Translations under genes and position numbers: made by a program
Shown: piece by piece, positions 43,995 to 48,544 of the stretch
Numbering within the stretch: the first letter of the stretch is position 1
Layout of the letters: each line of letters starts with the position of its first letter
Notes under the pieces: generated by a model
The model's input: only the letters and a program-made list of their open reading frames with translations
What the model was told of the DNA's origin: nothing
The model's database searches: none
From: Gammaproteobacteria bacterium
Lineage (GTDB): Bacteria > Pseudomonadota > Gammaproteobacteria > Steroidobacterales > PWYM01
Direction of reading: 5' to 3'
Length of the DNA: 60,462 nucleotides
Assembly (NCBI GenBank): GCA_003567475.1
Contig: PWZL01000012.1
Location: 69,290-129,751, forward strand

Positions 43995-44333
43995 GTGAAG
44001 AAGGTCTACAGCCACGAGTCGATCGTGACCATCAATCACCTGCGCAACCTGCTGGAGGCTCAGGGTATCCGTGCGATGGTGCGTAACGACCGGTTGTTCG
44101 GCGTGCTCGGCGAAGTGCCCTTCATGGAGTGCTGGCCGCAGCTGTGGGTGCTTGACGATCTGCAGGCCAGTTACGCCGAGCAGGTGCTGCAGGAAGCGAT
44201 GACCGCCCCGGACAGCGAGGCACCGGAGTGGCGCTGCCCGGCCTGCGGTGAGCGCGTCGACGGGCAGTTCGCGGTCTGCTGGAACTGCGGGGCCGCCCAT
44301 CCCGATGATCCCTCGGAGCAGGAGCCGCAATGA
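43995..44333 (+). CDS. DUF2007 protein with C-terminal zinc ribbon
   Basis: The 112-residue protein has an N-terminal DUF2007 domain (KKVYSHESIVTINHLRNLLE) and a C-terminal zinc ribbon (WRCPACGE, CWNCGA). The GTG start lies 15 bases after trpA, and its stop overlaps the channel gene (ATGA). Function unknown. Confidence 0.85.
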   Translation: MKKVYSHESIVTINHLRNLLEAQGIRAMVRNDRLFGVLGEVPFMECWPQLWVLDDLQASYAEQVLQEAMTAPDSEAPEWRCPACGERVDGQFAVCWNCGAAHPDDPSEQEPQ

Positions 44334-45622
44334 GTGTGCCGAGCGAACGTGGCCTGATGCCTGACGCCGCGACCCTGGCGCACGGGCTGGCCTGGCTGGA
44401 GCTGCTGCCACCGTGGGCGCAGACCGCGGCTGCGGTGACGCTGCTGCTGTTGGCCGCTTGGCTTGCGCATCTGGTGGCACGGGCGATCGTCGGTCGCGTC
44501 GTCACCGCCCTGACCGCGCGGGTGCCGAGCTGGTGGGTCGGGGTGGTCAACGAGAACCAGGTGTTCCACCGGCTGGTGCCGGTGGTGCCGGTGCTGGTCA
44601 TCAACCGCGGTGTCCTGCTGGTGCCGGACCTGCCAGCGCTGGTCGTGGATTTCGTCCAGCGCGTGATGCTGGCACTGATGGCGGTCCTCGTGGCGCGGGC
44701 CATCGGGGCGCTGGTCAACGCCGCGCATGCGATCTACCAGCGCTACCCGATCGCGCGCGGCCGGCCCATCAAGGGCTACGTGCAGGTGTTCAAGCTGATC
44801 ATCTACCTGCTCGCGGGTTTCATGGTAATCGCGGCGCTGGCGAACCAGTCGCCGTGGTTCTTCATCAGTGGTTTGGGCGCGATGACCGCCATCCTGCTGC
44901 TGATTTTTCGCGATACCATCCTGTCGTTCGTGGCGGGCATCCAGCTGGTGAACAACGATCTGGTGCGGGTCGGCGACTGGATCGAGATGCCCCAGTTTGA
45001 TGCCGATGGCGACGTGATCGACATTGCGCTGAATGTGGTCAGGGTGCAGAACTGGGACCGCACGATCACGGTCATCCCGACGCACAAATTTCTTGAGCAC
45101 AGCTTCCGCAACTGGCGCGGGATGTTCGAATCGGGCGGGCGGCGCATCAAGCGCACCGTGCACCTGGACCTGTCCACGGTGCGCTTTCTCACGCCTGAGG
45201 AGATCGCGCGTTTCCGGCGGTTCATCCTGCTGAAGGATTACGTCGACACCAAGGAACGCGAGCTGGCCGAGTGGAACGCCGAGCATTGCCCGCCCGACCA
45301 GGCGGACGTGTTGGCCAATACCCGCCACCTCACCAATATCGGCACCCTCAGGGCCTATATCAGCGAGTATCTGAAGCGCCACCCGCAGATCCATACGGAT
45401 CGCATTTTCCTGATCCGGCAGATGGCGCCCACGTCCAAGGGGGTGGGTATCGAGGTCTATGTCTTCGCCAAGGACACCCGGTGGGTGTTCTACGAGGGCA
45501 TCCAATCGGATATTTTCGACCACATCCTGGCGATCGTGCCGGAGTTCGGGCTGCGGGTCTTCCAGGAGCCCGGCGGGGCTGATTTCGCGCGCCTCGGCGG
45601 CCCCGGCAGCCGCGCTGACTGA
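44330..45622 (+). CDS. YbdG-like mechanosensitive channel (MscS family)
   Basis: The 430-residue protein has about five membrane helices and an MscS beta domain (FRDTILSFVAGIQLVNNDLVRVGDWIEMP). A long C-terminal domain follows (NWRGMFESGGRRIKRTVH, written in part), typical of YbdG. It releases solutes on hypo-osmotic shock. It is coupled to the DUF2007 gene and may be read with the trp operon. Confidence 0.92.
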   Translation: MSVPSERGLMPDAATLAHGLAWLELLPPWAQTAAAVTLLLLAAWLAHLVARAIVGRVVTALTARVPSWWVGVVNENQVFHRLVPVVPVLVINRGVLLVPDLPALVVDFVQRVMLALMAVLVARAIGALVNAAHAIYQRYPIARGRPIKGYVQVFKLIIYLLAGFMVIAALANQSPWFFISGLGAMTAILLLIFRDTILSFVAGIQLVNNDLVRVGDWIEMPQFDADGDVIDIALNVVRVQNWDRTITVIPTHKFLEHSFRNWRGMFESGGRRIKRTVHLDLSTVRFLTPEEIARFRRFILLKDYVDTKERELAEWNAEHCPPDQADVLANTRHLTNIGTLRAYISEYLKRHPQIHTDRIFLIRQMAPTSKGVGIEVYVFAKDTRWVFYEGIQSDIFDHILAIVPEFGLRVFQEPGGADFARLGGPGSRAD

Positions 45623-45658
45623 GCGAATTTTCGGAAACTCCTTATGCCATCGCCGGAT

Positions 45659-45687
45659 TTGCCGTAATTCCCCCTCGGCTCTGTAAG
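45659..45687 (+). promoter_or_regulatory. putative promoter of small RNA
   Basis: TTGCCG (45659-45664), a 17-base spacer and TGTAAG (45682-45687) resemble a sigma70 promoter pointing at the structured region that ends in a terminator at 45860. Confidence 0.45.
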
Positions 45688-45693
45688 TCTCAC

Positions 45694-45860
45694 TATGCAA
45701 CTGACGTTGGCAATTCCCCCCAGGTTGTCGCGTCCGGACACGGTGTCCTGGATTCACCTGGCAAGACCCCCCACTCGAGTGACTCGAGATGCTTCGCCAG
45801 GATCGAGCCCCCTCCAGGCCGTGACCCTCGACGGGCGGTTTCTGACCGCCCGTTTTTTTT
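45694..45860 (+). ncRNA. candidate C-rich small RNA (or long regulatory 5' leader)
   Basis: The 381-base gap between the channel and the peptidase holds a promoter-like pair, about 165 bases with clear secondary structure and a strong terminator, with no convincing protein frame. TGGCAAnnCCCCCC occurs twice (45708-45721 and 45759-45772). The repeats flank a stem CAGGT...ACCTG with an inner TCC/GGACAC–GTGTCC/GGA helix. A third C-run (45808-45812) follows. C-rich single-stranded loops resemble sX13-type trans-acting RNAs that bind G-rich mRNA. It matches no RNA family I recognise. The 143 bases after 45860 hold only the ribosome binding site of the next gene. Confidence 0.5.
45831..45860 (+). 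terminator. Rho-independent terminator
   Basis: ACGGGCGGT, loop TTCTG and ACCGCCCGT form a nine-bp perfect stem ending in eight T. It ends the candidate small RNA and possibly also the trp–channel transcript. Confidence 0.92.
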
Positions 45861-46003
45861 GGCGATTCCGCGGGACCTGGTCTGGGTCGCGGCGATCGAG
45901 CCCGGTGCTGACCCCCTGGCCGTCATCAATCGCCGTTTCGGGTCGCATCGGCCTGCAGAGGTCGTTTAAGCTCTGCCGCTGCATTCCAGGAGGGGTTCAC
46001 GGC

Positions 46004-48544
46004 ATGAAGCGTTTTCTCGGCATGGTCGGTCTTTGGCTGCTCTTGGGTGGCGCGTTTCCGGTGTTGGCACAGGGTCTGCTGCCGGCAGACTTCGATCCTG
46101 ATCCGTCCGTGCCGTCTCCGGCGGAGATTCTCGGTTTCGAGGCCGGTGAGCGCCATGTCACCCACCACGAGATGCTGCGGGTGTTCTCGACGCTGGCCGC
46201 CGCCTCGCCGCGCATGCATGTCGAGGTGATCGGCGAGAGTCACGGGGGCCGTCCGCTGCTGCTGGCGTACTTTCATGCCGACGGCTCGTCCGAGCGGATC
46301 ACCGCCCTGCGCGAGTCCAGAGCCGACCAGGCCGCCGCCGGCGAGGGACCGTTGACGGTCTGGCTGGGCTACCAGGTGCACGGTGACGAGGCCTCGGCGA
46401 TGCCGGCGGCCATCGAGATCGCCTGGTACCTGGCGGCCTCGCGCAGCGAGCGCGTGGTCCGGCTGCTCGAGGATGCTGTGGTCGTGCTGGAGCCCGCGCT
46501 CAATCCCGATGGCACCGACCGATTCGCCCAATGGGTCAACGACAACCGGGGCCGCCACCCCAATGCAGATCCGAACGATCGCGAGCATCGCCAGGGCTGG
46601 CCCACCGCGCGGACCAACTACTACTGGTTTGACCTCAACCGCGACTGGCTGCCGCTGGTGCATCCCGAGTCGCAGGCCCGCCTCGCCCACTATCACCAGT
46701 GGCAGCCGCACGTGGTTGGCGATGTTCACGAGATGGGCCATACCACCACCTACTTTTTCCAGCCCGGGGTGCCGGAGCGGAACAACCCACTGACGCCGCA
46801 GGAGAACTTCGATCTCACCGGGCGCATCGCAGAGTTCCATGCCGCCGAGCTCGACCGCCGCGGTGAACCCTATTTCACCCGTGAGCTGTTCGACGACTAC
46901 TACGTCGGCAAGGGATCGACCTATCCCGATCTCACCGGCGGCGTCGGTATCCTGTTCGAACAGGGGTCGACCCGCGGACACGTGATGGAGACCCCACACG
47001 GCACTCGCCACTTCCGCGACGCCATCGCCAACCAGGTCAGCACCTCGCTGTCGACACTCGCTGGCGCCCATGCACTGGCCGACGAGCTGCGCCGTTACCA
47101 GCGTGATTTCTTTGCCAGTGCACTGGATCAGGGGCAGCGCGTCGGCCATGCCGGTTGGGTGATCGGGGATGGCGGCGAACCCGGTCGTGCCACCCGTCTG
47201 GTGGAGCTGCTCCTGCAGCATCAGCTGGTGGTGCATGACGCCCGCGGTCCCGTGGTCATCGATGGGCAGGAGTACGCGCGCGGCTGGGTGATCCCGGCGG
47301 CCCAGCGCCACTTCCGCCTGGCCGCCTCGCTGCTCGACCCGGCACTGGCGTTTCCGCACGAGGAGTTCTACGACGTCTCGACCTGGTGGTTGCCGGCCAT
47401 GTTCGACGTCCCGGCGACCCAGGCGCGGCGGCTGCCGGCGCATGAGGCGCGGGCCCTCGAGGCCGCGCCGAGGGTCGCGGGCAACCTGCCGGCGGGCGAC
47501 GAGGCGCTGGCGTGGATCATTCCCTGGGACCAGCTGGCGGCACCCCGAGCCCTCGACCGGCTGCTGGAGGCTGGCGCGCACGTCCGCGTCGCCACCCGCG
47601 AGATCGAGATCGACACCGCGGATGGGACCCGGCGATTCGCGCGCGGGGCACTGGTGCTGCTGCGTGGACTGGAGATGCAGCCCGACCTGCGGGCAGTGCT
47701 TGCGCCCCTGGCCCGTGAAGACGGCCTCGTGGTCGCAGCCACGGCCAGCCTGCTGGCGCGCTCCGGACCGGATCTCGGTGCGCCTTCGGTACGGCCGCTC
47801 GAGCCGGTCCGCCCGTTGCTGCTCACCGGGGTGGGCCTGTCACCCGGTTCTGCCGGCCAGATCTGGCACTGGTTCGATACCGTGGTTCAGCGCCCGCTCA
47901 CCCGCGTTGAATGGGAGCGGATCCAGGCTGTCAATCTCGCCGATTACACCCATGTCCTGCTGCCGGACGGGGAGTACGCGGACCTGCCGGAACGCCTGGT
48001 GACCCAGCTGACGCGCTTCGTCGAGGCCGGGGGCACCGTGGTGGGGATCCAGCGTGGCGCCGAGTTTGCCGGCCGGCTGGCGCTGGAGCCGGCGCTTGCG
48101 TCCGCGCCTGAGCCTGCGGCGGACACCCAGCCGCCCGCACCACGGGGCTACGAGGACTTCATCATGGATCTCGCCGAGCTGCGCATCGCCGGTGCCCTCC
48201 TGAACCTGGAGCTGGACATCACGCATCCGTTGGGTTTCGGTTTCACCCGCGCGAGCGTCCCGGTCTTTCGCCAGGGTGCGACGCGGCTGCCCGCGCCGGC
48301 GAATGCGTATGTGCAGCCGGGCCGTTATGCCAGCGAGCCGGTGCTCTCGGGTTATGTCTCGGCGGCGCGGCGCGAGGCGCTGGCGGGCTCGCCGGGGCTG
48401 CTGGCGGAGCCTCGCGGCCGCGGGCTGGTCGTGCGGGTGGCGGATGACTACCTGTTTCGGGGCACCCAGCTGGGCACCTGGCGGCTGTTCGCGAACCTGG
48501 TGTATTTCAGCCAGCTGGTCGAGGCGCGCGAGCTGCCGCGCTGA
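46004..48544 (+). CDS. secreted M14-type zinc carboxypeptidase
   Basis: The 846-residue protein has a signal peptide (LGMVGLWLLLGGAFPVLAQG) and an N-terminal M14 peptidase domain. The zinc ligands are in YQVHGDEAS (HxxE) and GDVHEMGHTT (His), with NPDGTDR and FDLNRDW nearby. The long C-terminal half, with YTHVLLPDGEYA and VEAGGTVVGI, resembles a glutamine-amidotransferase-like fold, without a clear nucleophile. AGGAGGGG lies 8 bases before ATG 46004; the open frame back to 45695 covers the small RNA. Probably a periplasmic peptidase; substrate unknown. Confidence 0.9.
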   Translation: MKRFLGMVGLWLLLGGAFPVLAQGLLPADFDPDPSVPSPAEILGFEAGERHVTHHEMLRVFSTLAAASPRMHVEVIGESHGGRPLLLAYFHADGSSERITALRESRADQAAAGEGPLTVWLGYQVHGDEASAMPAAIEIAWYLAASRSERVVRLLEDAVVVLEPALNPDGTDRFAQWVNDNRGRHPNADPNDREHRQGWPTARTNYYWFDLNRDWLPLVHPESQARLAHYHQWQPHVVGDVHEMGHTTTYFFQPGVPERNNPLTPQENFDLTGRIAEFHAAELDRRGEPYFTRELFDDYYVGKGSTYPDLTGGVGILFEQGSTRGHVMETPHGTRHFRDAIANQVSTSLSTLAGAHALADELRRYQRDFFASALDQGQRVGHAGWVIGDGGEPGRATRLVELLLQHQLVVHDARGPVVIDGQEYARGWVIPAAQRHFRLAASLLDPALAFPHEEFYDVSTWWLPAMFDVPATQARRLPAHEARALEAAPRVAGNLPAGDEALAWIIPWDQLAAPRALDRLLEAGAHVRVATREIEIDTADGTRRFARGALVLLRGLEMQPDLRAVLAPLAREDGLVVAATASLLARSGPDLGAPSVRPLEPVRPLLLTGVGLSPGSAGQIWHWFDTVVQRPLTRVEWERIQAVNLADYTHVLLPDGEYADLPERLVTQLTRFVEAGGTVVGIQRGAEFAGRLALEPALASAPEPAADTQPPAPRGYEDFIMDLAELRIAGALLNLELDITHPLGFGFTRASVPVFRQGATRLPAPANAYVQPGRYASEPVLSGYVSAARREALAGSPGLLAEPRGRGLVVRVADDYLFRGTQLGTWRLFANLVYFSQLVEARELPR

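Follow-up and report, generated by a model that had tools for sequence, protein, structure and literature searches.

A probable small RNA with conserved C-runs, located between a mechanosensitive channel gene and an M14 peptidase gene, and its similarity to the mRNA of a DksA-N-like protein

The stretch of DNA analysed here (60,462 nucleotides of contig PWZL01000012.1; Gammaproteobacteria, Steroidobacterales, PWYM01), referred to as the window, contains a gene-free gap between genes encoding a mechanosensitive (MS) ion channel and an M14 zinc carboxypeptidase-like protein, the latter beginning with the ATG at 46004 (Table 1). An earlier note on this DNA had placed in the gap a candidate small RNA with a promoter, a structured body of about 165 bases and a strong terminator. 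The gap and the terminator were found as described, and the locus very probably holds a genuine small RNA gene, for which we infer a transcript most likely about 155 nt in length (45703 to about 45858). The promoter was not recovered, as no sequence at the small RNA exceeded the threshold of a sigma-70 scan and the only candidate was a conserved -10-like box, CACTAT or CATTAT in the related genome G004, with a poor -35. This box lies within the conserved GTCTCAYTATGCAA and ends 6 nt upstream of the first stem, so that the start would fall on the first base of hairpin 1 (45703). An element further upstream is possibly a promoter or operator, and its first part, TTCGGAAA (45630-45638), was located a few bases past the channel gene stop codon in all five members of the genus, before the small RNA or a small ORF alike.

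Table 1. Features of the small RNA locus and of the neighbouring genes, in window coordinates
Feature	Positions	Strand	Remarks
Upstream neighbour, mechanosensitive ion channel (PF00924)	44330-45622	+	
Conserved element upstream of the RNA, TTCGGAAA...TTTnCCGTnATT	45630-45669	+	Possible promoter or operator region
-10-like box CACTAT (CATTAT in G004)	45691-45696	+	Poor -35; sub-threshold in the sigma-70 scan
Hairpin 1, stem GACG(U)YGGCAR / UUGYCRCGUC, apical C-rich loop	45703-45734	+	Pairing retained despite two-sided changes, four species
C-run 1, CCCCCC, apical loop of hairpin 1	45716-45721	+	Predicted unpaired
Long second domain, helices CACGG/CCGUG, CCUGGA/UCCAGG and CCUGGC/GCCAGG	45736-45826	+	Predicted; mostly invariant
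Remnant of the first ~20 codons of a DksA-N-like ORF, start codon now CTG	45749-45802	+	Alignment with G001, 0/1000 shuffles
C-run 2, CCCCCC, internal loop	45767-45772	+	Predicted unpaired
Apical hairpin CUCGAG-UGA-CUCGAG	45774-45788	+	Predicted fold
C-run 3, CCCCCUCC, CCCCC forming a bulge, complementary to the peptidase RBS	45808-45815	+	Predicted unpaired; duplex energies
Intrinsic terminator	45830-45860	+	11 pairs + T8, strong; also closes the G001 mRNA
G-rich RBS of the peptidase gene, AGGAGGGG, candidate target	45988-45996	+	Complementarity
Downstream neighbour, M14 zinc carboxypeptidase-like (PF00246)	46004-48544	+	

The C-rich 14-mer TGGCAAnnCCCCCC, described earlier as a repeat on both sides of a stem, was present in two copies (45709-45722 and 45759-45772). 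Elsewhere in the 3.06 Mb genome it occurred once, apparently within coding sequence. The exact repeat was not kept as a pair in the related genomes G003 and G004, each of which had one or two altered copies, and the conserved features were the C-runs with their adjacent stems rather than the 14-mer. The C-runs number three, not two, with the CCCCC of the third at 45808-45812. At least three runs of at least five C occurred in 10 of 6032 window stretches of that length, some of them overlapping the small RNA locus, and in 3.75% of shuffles of the small RNA; three such runs within one RNA-length stretch are thus uncommon. Loss of the C-rich repeats in relatives had been named as evidence against a small RNA, and in the sister genomes the C-runs were conserved and the exact 14-mer was not; the small RNA reading thus withstood this check. 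Most inspected sites with YCCCCCCAGG elsewhere lay within long open frames, one unrelated C-rich hairpin apart. That hairpin, GGGGCGRCACGCC-(C-rich loop of 18-20 nt, almost entirely C)-GGCGTGTCGCCCC, belongs to another intergenic locus that is conserved and was matched in all five genus members (L198, G000:C57:38368-38572, minus strand; L154, 1441-1660, in G003; L197, L199 and L200), the hairpin being seen in at least our genome, G003 and G004. It matched no Rfam family, and the element GGGACCAGAG...CTCTGGTCCC that follows its hairpin could be a repeat end.

When 59 relatives were searched at the DNA level, close copies of the small RNA came from two species of this genus, G003 (92%) and G004 (87%), which we take to be metagenome bins from soda-lake samples. 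The genomes compared are apparently all metagenome bins or assemblies, and the RNA-bearing species number three. When the interval between the channel and peptidase genes was aligned, the RNA body was 95% (G003) and 86% (G004) identical to ours; the terminator reached 97% and 90%, and the gap past it only 56% and 40%. Third codon positions were 75% and 58% identical in the peptidase gene and 64% and 52% in the channel gene. The RNA and its terminator therefore form a strongly constrained unit that reaches from near the -10-like box to the T-run. A covariance model trained on our sequence and those of G003 and G004 gave no matches beyond G003 and G004 in 396 genomes of the order and 369 of the class, and none at E up to 5 in the other genus members, G001 and G002, so that of the covariance search proposed earlier two sisters were the entire yield. 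A pattern scan of the named genomes likewise returned only the two sisters, its remaining 15 matches being at chance level. No paralogues were found in the genome itself and no copies in a plasmid search. The G004 channel gene (L085, G004:C135:3813-5024) encodes a protein only 58% identical to ours, compared with 87% for the neighbouring RNA and 85% for the peptidase, and from these sequences it looks to have been replaced by a foreign allele.

The fold of the small RNA beat 200 of 200 shuffles (z -3.4), in agreement with the structured body proposed earlier. Three pairs of hairpin 1 were changed on both sides among four species, and standard pairs occurred in 97.5% of cells compared with 25-60% when the partner strand was slid. 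A shuffle control was weaker, with 25 of 500 shuffles reaching the same level, as is expected with only four sequences. The stems beyond hairpin 1 were nearly invariant, and covariation consequently says nothing on them. The C-runs were predicted to be mainly unpaired in our species, G003 and G004, with mean unpaired probabilities in that order of 0.89, 0.69 and 0.89 for C-run 1, 0.86, 0.85 and 0.48 for C-run 2 (only half exposed in G004) and 0.99, 1.0 and 0.98 for the CCCCC of C-run 3.

The earlier note had likened the locus to sX13 of Xanthomonas, in which C-rich loops pair with G-rich motifs close to start codons and which acts without Hfq (PMC3771888). The likeness held for a tightly folded RNA with three C-rich segments, here predicted to be single-stranded, for high conservation within variable flanks and for a host in which G-rich sites often precede start codons (PMC3771888). 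The small RNA is not a member of the sX13 family, however. All sX13 homologues lie downstream of polA, whereas this RNA has the MS channel and M14 peptidase genes as neighbours; its C-runs occupy an apical loop, an internal loop and a bulge rather than three apical loops, and its length is about 155 nt compared with 115 nt (PMC3771888). It is also confined to another genus, derived from an mRNA as described below, and without an Rfam match: no family reached the gathering threshold, and a lax search (E up to 10) gave chance-level hits, none of them sX13.

G001 and G002, in which DNA and covariance searches found no small RNA, carry a gene of about 75 codons directly behind the channel gene, and the protein encoded in G001 gave a match to the DksA-like N-terminal domain (PF21173, E 2.4e-11). 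No copy of this gene was detected in our genome or in G004. The sole DksA-N-like copy in G003 is diverged, located elsewhere in the genome and fused to a DJ-1/PfpI-like protein (named by eye); the coiled-coil and the DJ-1/PfpI-type part share one frame (L108, 1501-1692, minus strand; G003:C92:7039-7230). In G002 (L107) a second DksA-N-like gene precedes sequence similar to the DJ-1/PfpI-type part.

Both ends of the G001 transcript unit matched the small RNA. The 5' UTR sequence GACG-A-UGGCGGCUCCCCCAGGCCACCA-CGUC aligned with hairpin 1 and the alignment extended through about 20 codons of the ORF, with a score of 198 compared with a mean of 76 (sd 12, maximum 126) for 1000 shuffles. The ORF part by itself scored 119, above the shuffle maximum of 114 and reached by none of 1000 shuffles. 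The last bases of the gene and the 3' UTR with GCCCCCTCC and the terminator matched the small RNA 3' end (E 1.6e-6), and the score of this part without the terminator was reached by 1 of 1000 shuffles. In an unfiltered search with the full model the G001 stretch ranked first of five loci (17.7 bits, E 0.027). When the small RNA and the G001 gene were aligned jointly, the 3' part was misplaced, and that alignment was set aside. The ORF start codon has become CTG in our species, G003 and G004, the frame is shifted in our species and in G003, and the G004 remnant reads LDSPGKTPTLESLE against MDMTAKAPTIEELE. From the length comparison the deleted coding sequence is estimated at about 180 nt. Taken from the alignments, this indicates that the small RNA is a DksA-N-like mRNA minus its start codon, intact frame and most codons. 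The UTR sequences of G002 differ, yet its 5' UTR has a hairpin around GCCCCCA and its terminator hairpin carries UCCCCCCAGG. Identity to our genome in the longest common frame beside hfq was 94% (G003), 91% (G004), 82.5% (G001) and 75% (G002); by these pairwise identities the RNA-bearing species group together, with G001 and G002, which have the ORF, outside them. Relatives of the ORF were also found across the order, and together with the species order this makes an ancestral ORF and a derived RNA the simplest reading.

As a whole, the best explanation, to which we give a probability of roughly 60%, is an independent regulatory RNA that is mRNA-derived and whose C-runs block translation of G-rich mRNAs. 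The segment 45703-45858 would be transcribed independently and end at its own terminator, the DksA-N-like mRNA behind the channel gene having presumably lost its start codon and most codons while the 5' UTR hairpin, the 3' UTR and the terminator stayed. The C-runs in the apical loop, internal loop and bulge would pair with G-rich ribosome-binding regions, and this pairing would block translation in the manner of sX13. G-runs before ATG were 2.6- to 3.7-fold above the reversed pattern in all five genomes, and Hfq (PF17209) was encoded in each of them. The adjacent peptidase mRNA would be the first candidate target. Its ribosome-binding site includes GGAGGGG, found among the predicted gene starts in the window at the peptidase only, and is GGAGGGGGGG in G003 and GGAGGGGG in G004. 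Duplexes of C-run 3 with this site had predicted energies of -18.3 (our species), -21.1 (G003) and -22.4 kcal/mol (G004), which places them among the top 1.9, 0.3 and 0.1% of random stretches. These energies are compatible with a target yet could mean merely a strong ribosome-binding site; such an SD sequence can pair with any C-rich RNA. The G002 peptidase ortholog is located elsewhere in its genome, without such a G-run. A long, imperfect duplex between the entire RNA and the peptidase site (-43.8 kcal/mol) was set aside as it demands an opened terminator and internal stem.

The complementarity to the peptidase ribosome-binding site would also suit an attenuating leader or 5' UTR element of the peptidase gene, as offered in the earlier note, in which read-through of the terminator is switched or the C-run masks the ribosome-binding site in cis, and the peptidase gene does lie downstream on the same strand in all three RNA-bearing species. 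We consider this reading unlikely because G001 has these two elements, hairpin 1 and the terminator, around a different, small gene with no peptidase gene behind it; an attenuator or riboswitch has its terminator tied to the downstream gene across relatives, and G001 departs from this. Conservation moreover ends at the T-run, the next gap being only 40-56% identical, no antiterminator was noticed (without a systematic search), and a separate conserved block precedes the peptidase RBS. This block, GTCGTTTAAGCTYTGCCG at 45960-45996, may be the peptidase gene's own promoter. It is quite unlikely that the C-rich loops bind or titrate a protein instead of mRNAs. Repeated short single-stranded loop motifs are a feature of protein sponges such as the CsrB-type RNAs, but the GGA motifs that mark CsrA binding are mostly within stems here, G004 lacks one of the three, and we know of no bacterial poly-C-binding partner.

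Descent from a protein gene that has no start codon and has lost most codons could equally leave a dying remnant, a functionless pseudogene whether transcribed or not. This is very unlikely, as the conservation is strong: the RNA is more conserved than the third codon positions of both neighbours, and the pairs of hairpin 1 changed on both sides. Highly improbable is a short peptide from the ATG at 45695 (MQLTLAIPPRL...), even with that ATG conserved and 26 codons open in all three species, because most codon changes alter the amino acid (3 of 3 codons in G003, 5 of 7 in G004) and a net length change in G003 breaks the downstream frame. The ATG also overlaps the -10-like box and has no preceding ribosome-binding site.

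The regulatory RNA favoured here shares features with two known kinds of transcript. Like the dual-function RNAs SgrS/SgrT and VcdRP (PMC4021124, PMC8672173), the G001 transcript contains a small ORF and, beyond its boundaries, structured elements that are conserved; unlike in the SgrS type, the ORF intact in G001 has been destroyed and mostly deleted in our clade, where the start codon is lost and the frame broken. Small RNAs from mRNA 3' ends (reviewed in PMC9438474) share with the regulatory RNA proposed here the use of an mRNA terminator, although those usually coexist with a working coding gene and in this case the gene is gone and both UTRs are kept. In a predicted fold of the whole G001 mRNA the 5' UTR pairs with the 3' UTR around the ORF and three CCCCC runs are unpaired (0.99, 0.92 and 0.96), so the C-run architecture seems older than the loss of the protein, a fold of a 339-nt mRNA being only suggestive. 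The ancestral transcript could tentatively be viewed, at slightly below even odds, as a dual-function mRNA that encoded the DksA-N-like protein and carried three exposed C-rich segments regulating G-rich messages, from which one lineage dropped the protein and kept the riboregulator. The literature gave no direct bacterial precedent of an mRNA turned small RNA, a weak negative with the subscription literature mostly uncovered.

The locus may be a clear case of a message turned regulator. The origin of new bacterial small RNAs is poorly documented because small RNAs diverge fast. Here synteny, a common terminator, a common 5' hairpin and a readable frame remnant link the small RNA to an mRNA that is intact in close relatives, which makes the order of RNA function and protein loss directly testable. 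If the dual-function ancestor is true, the steps by which an mRNA gave rise to a stand-alone small RNA could be followed in living species.
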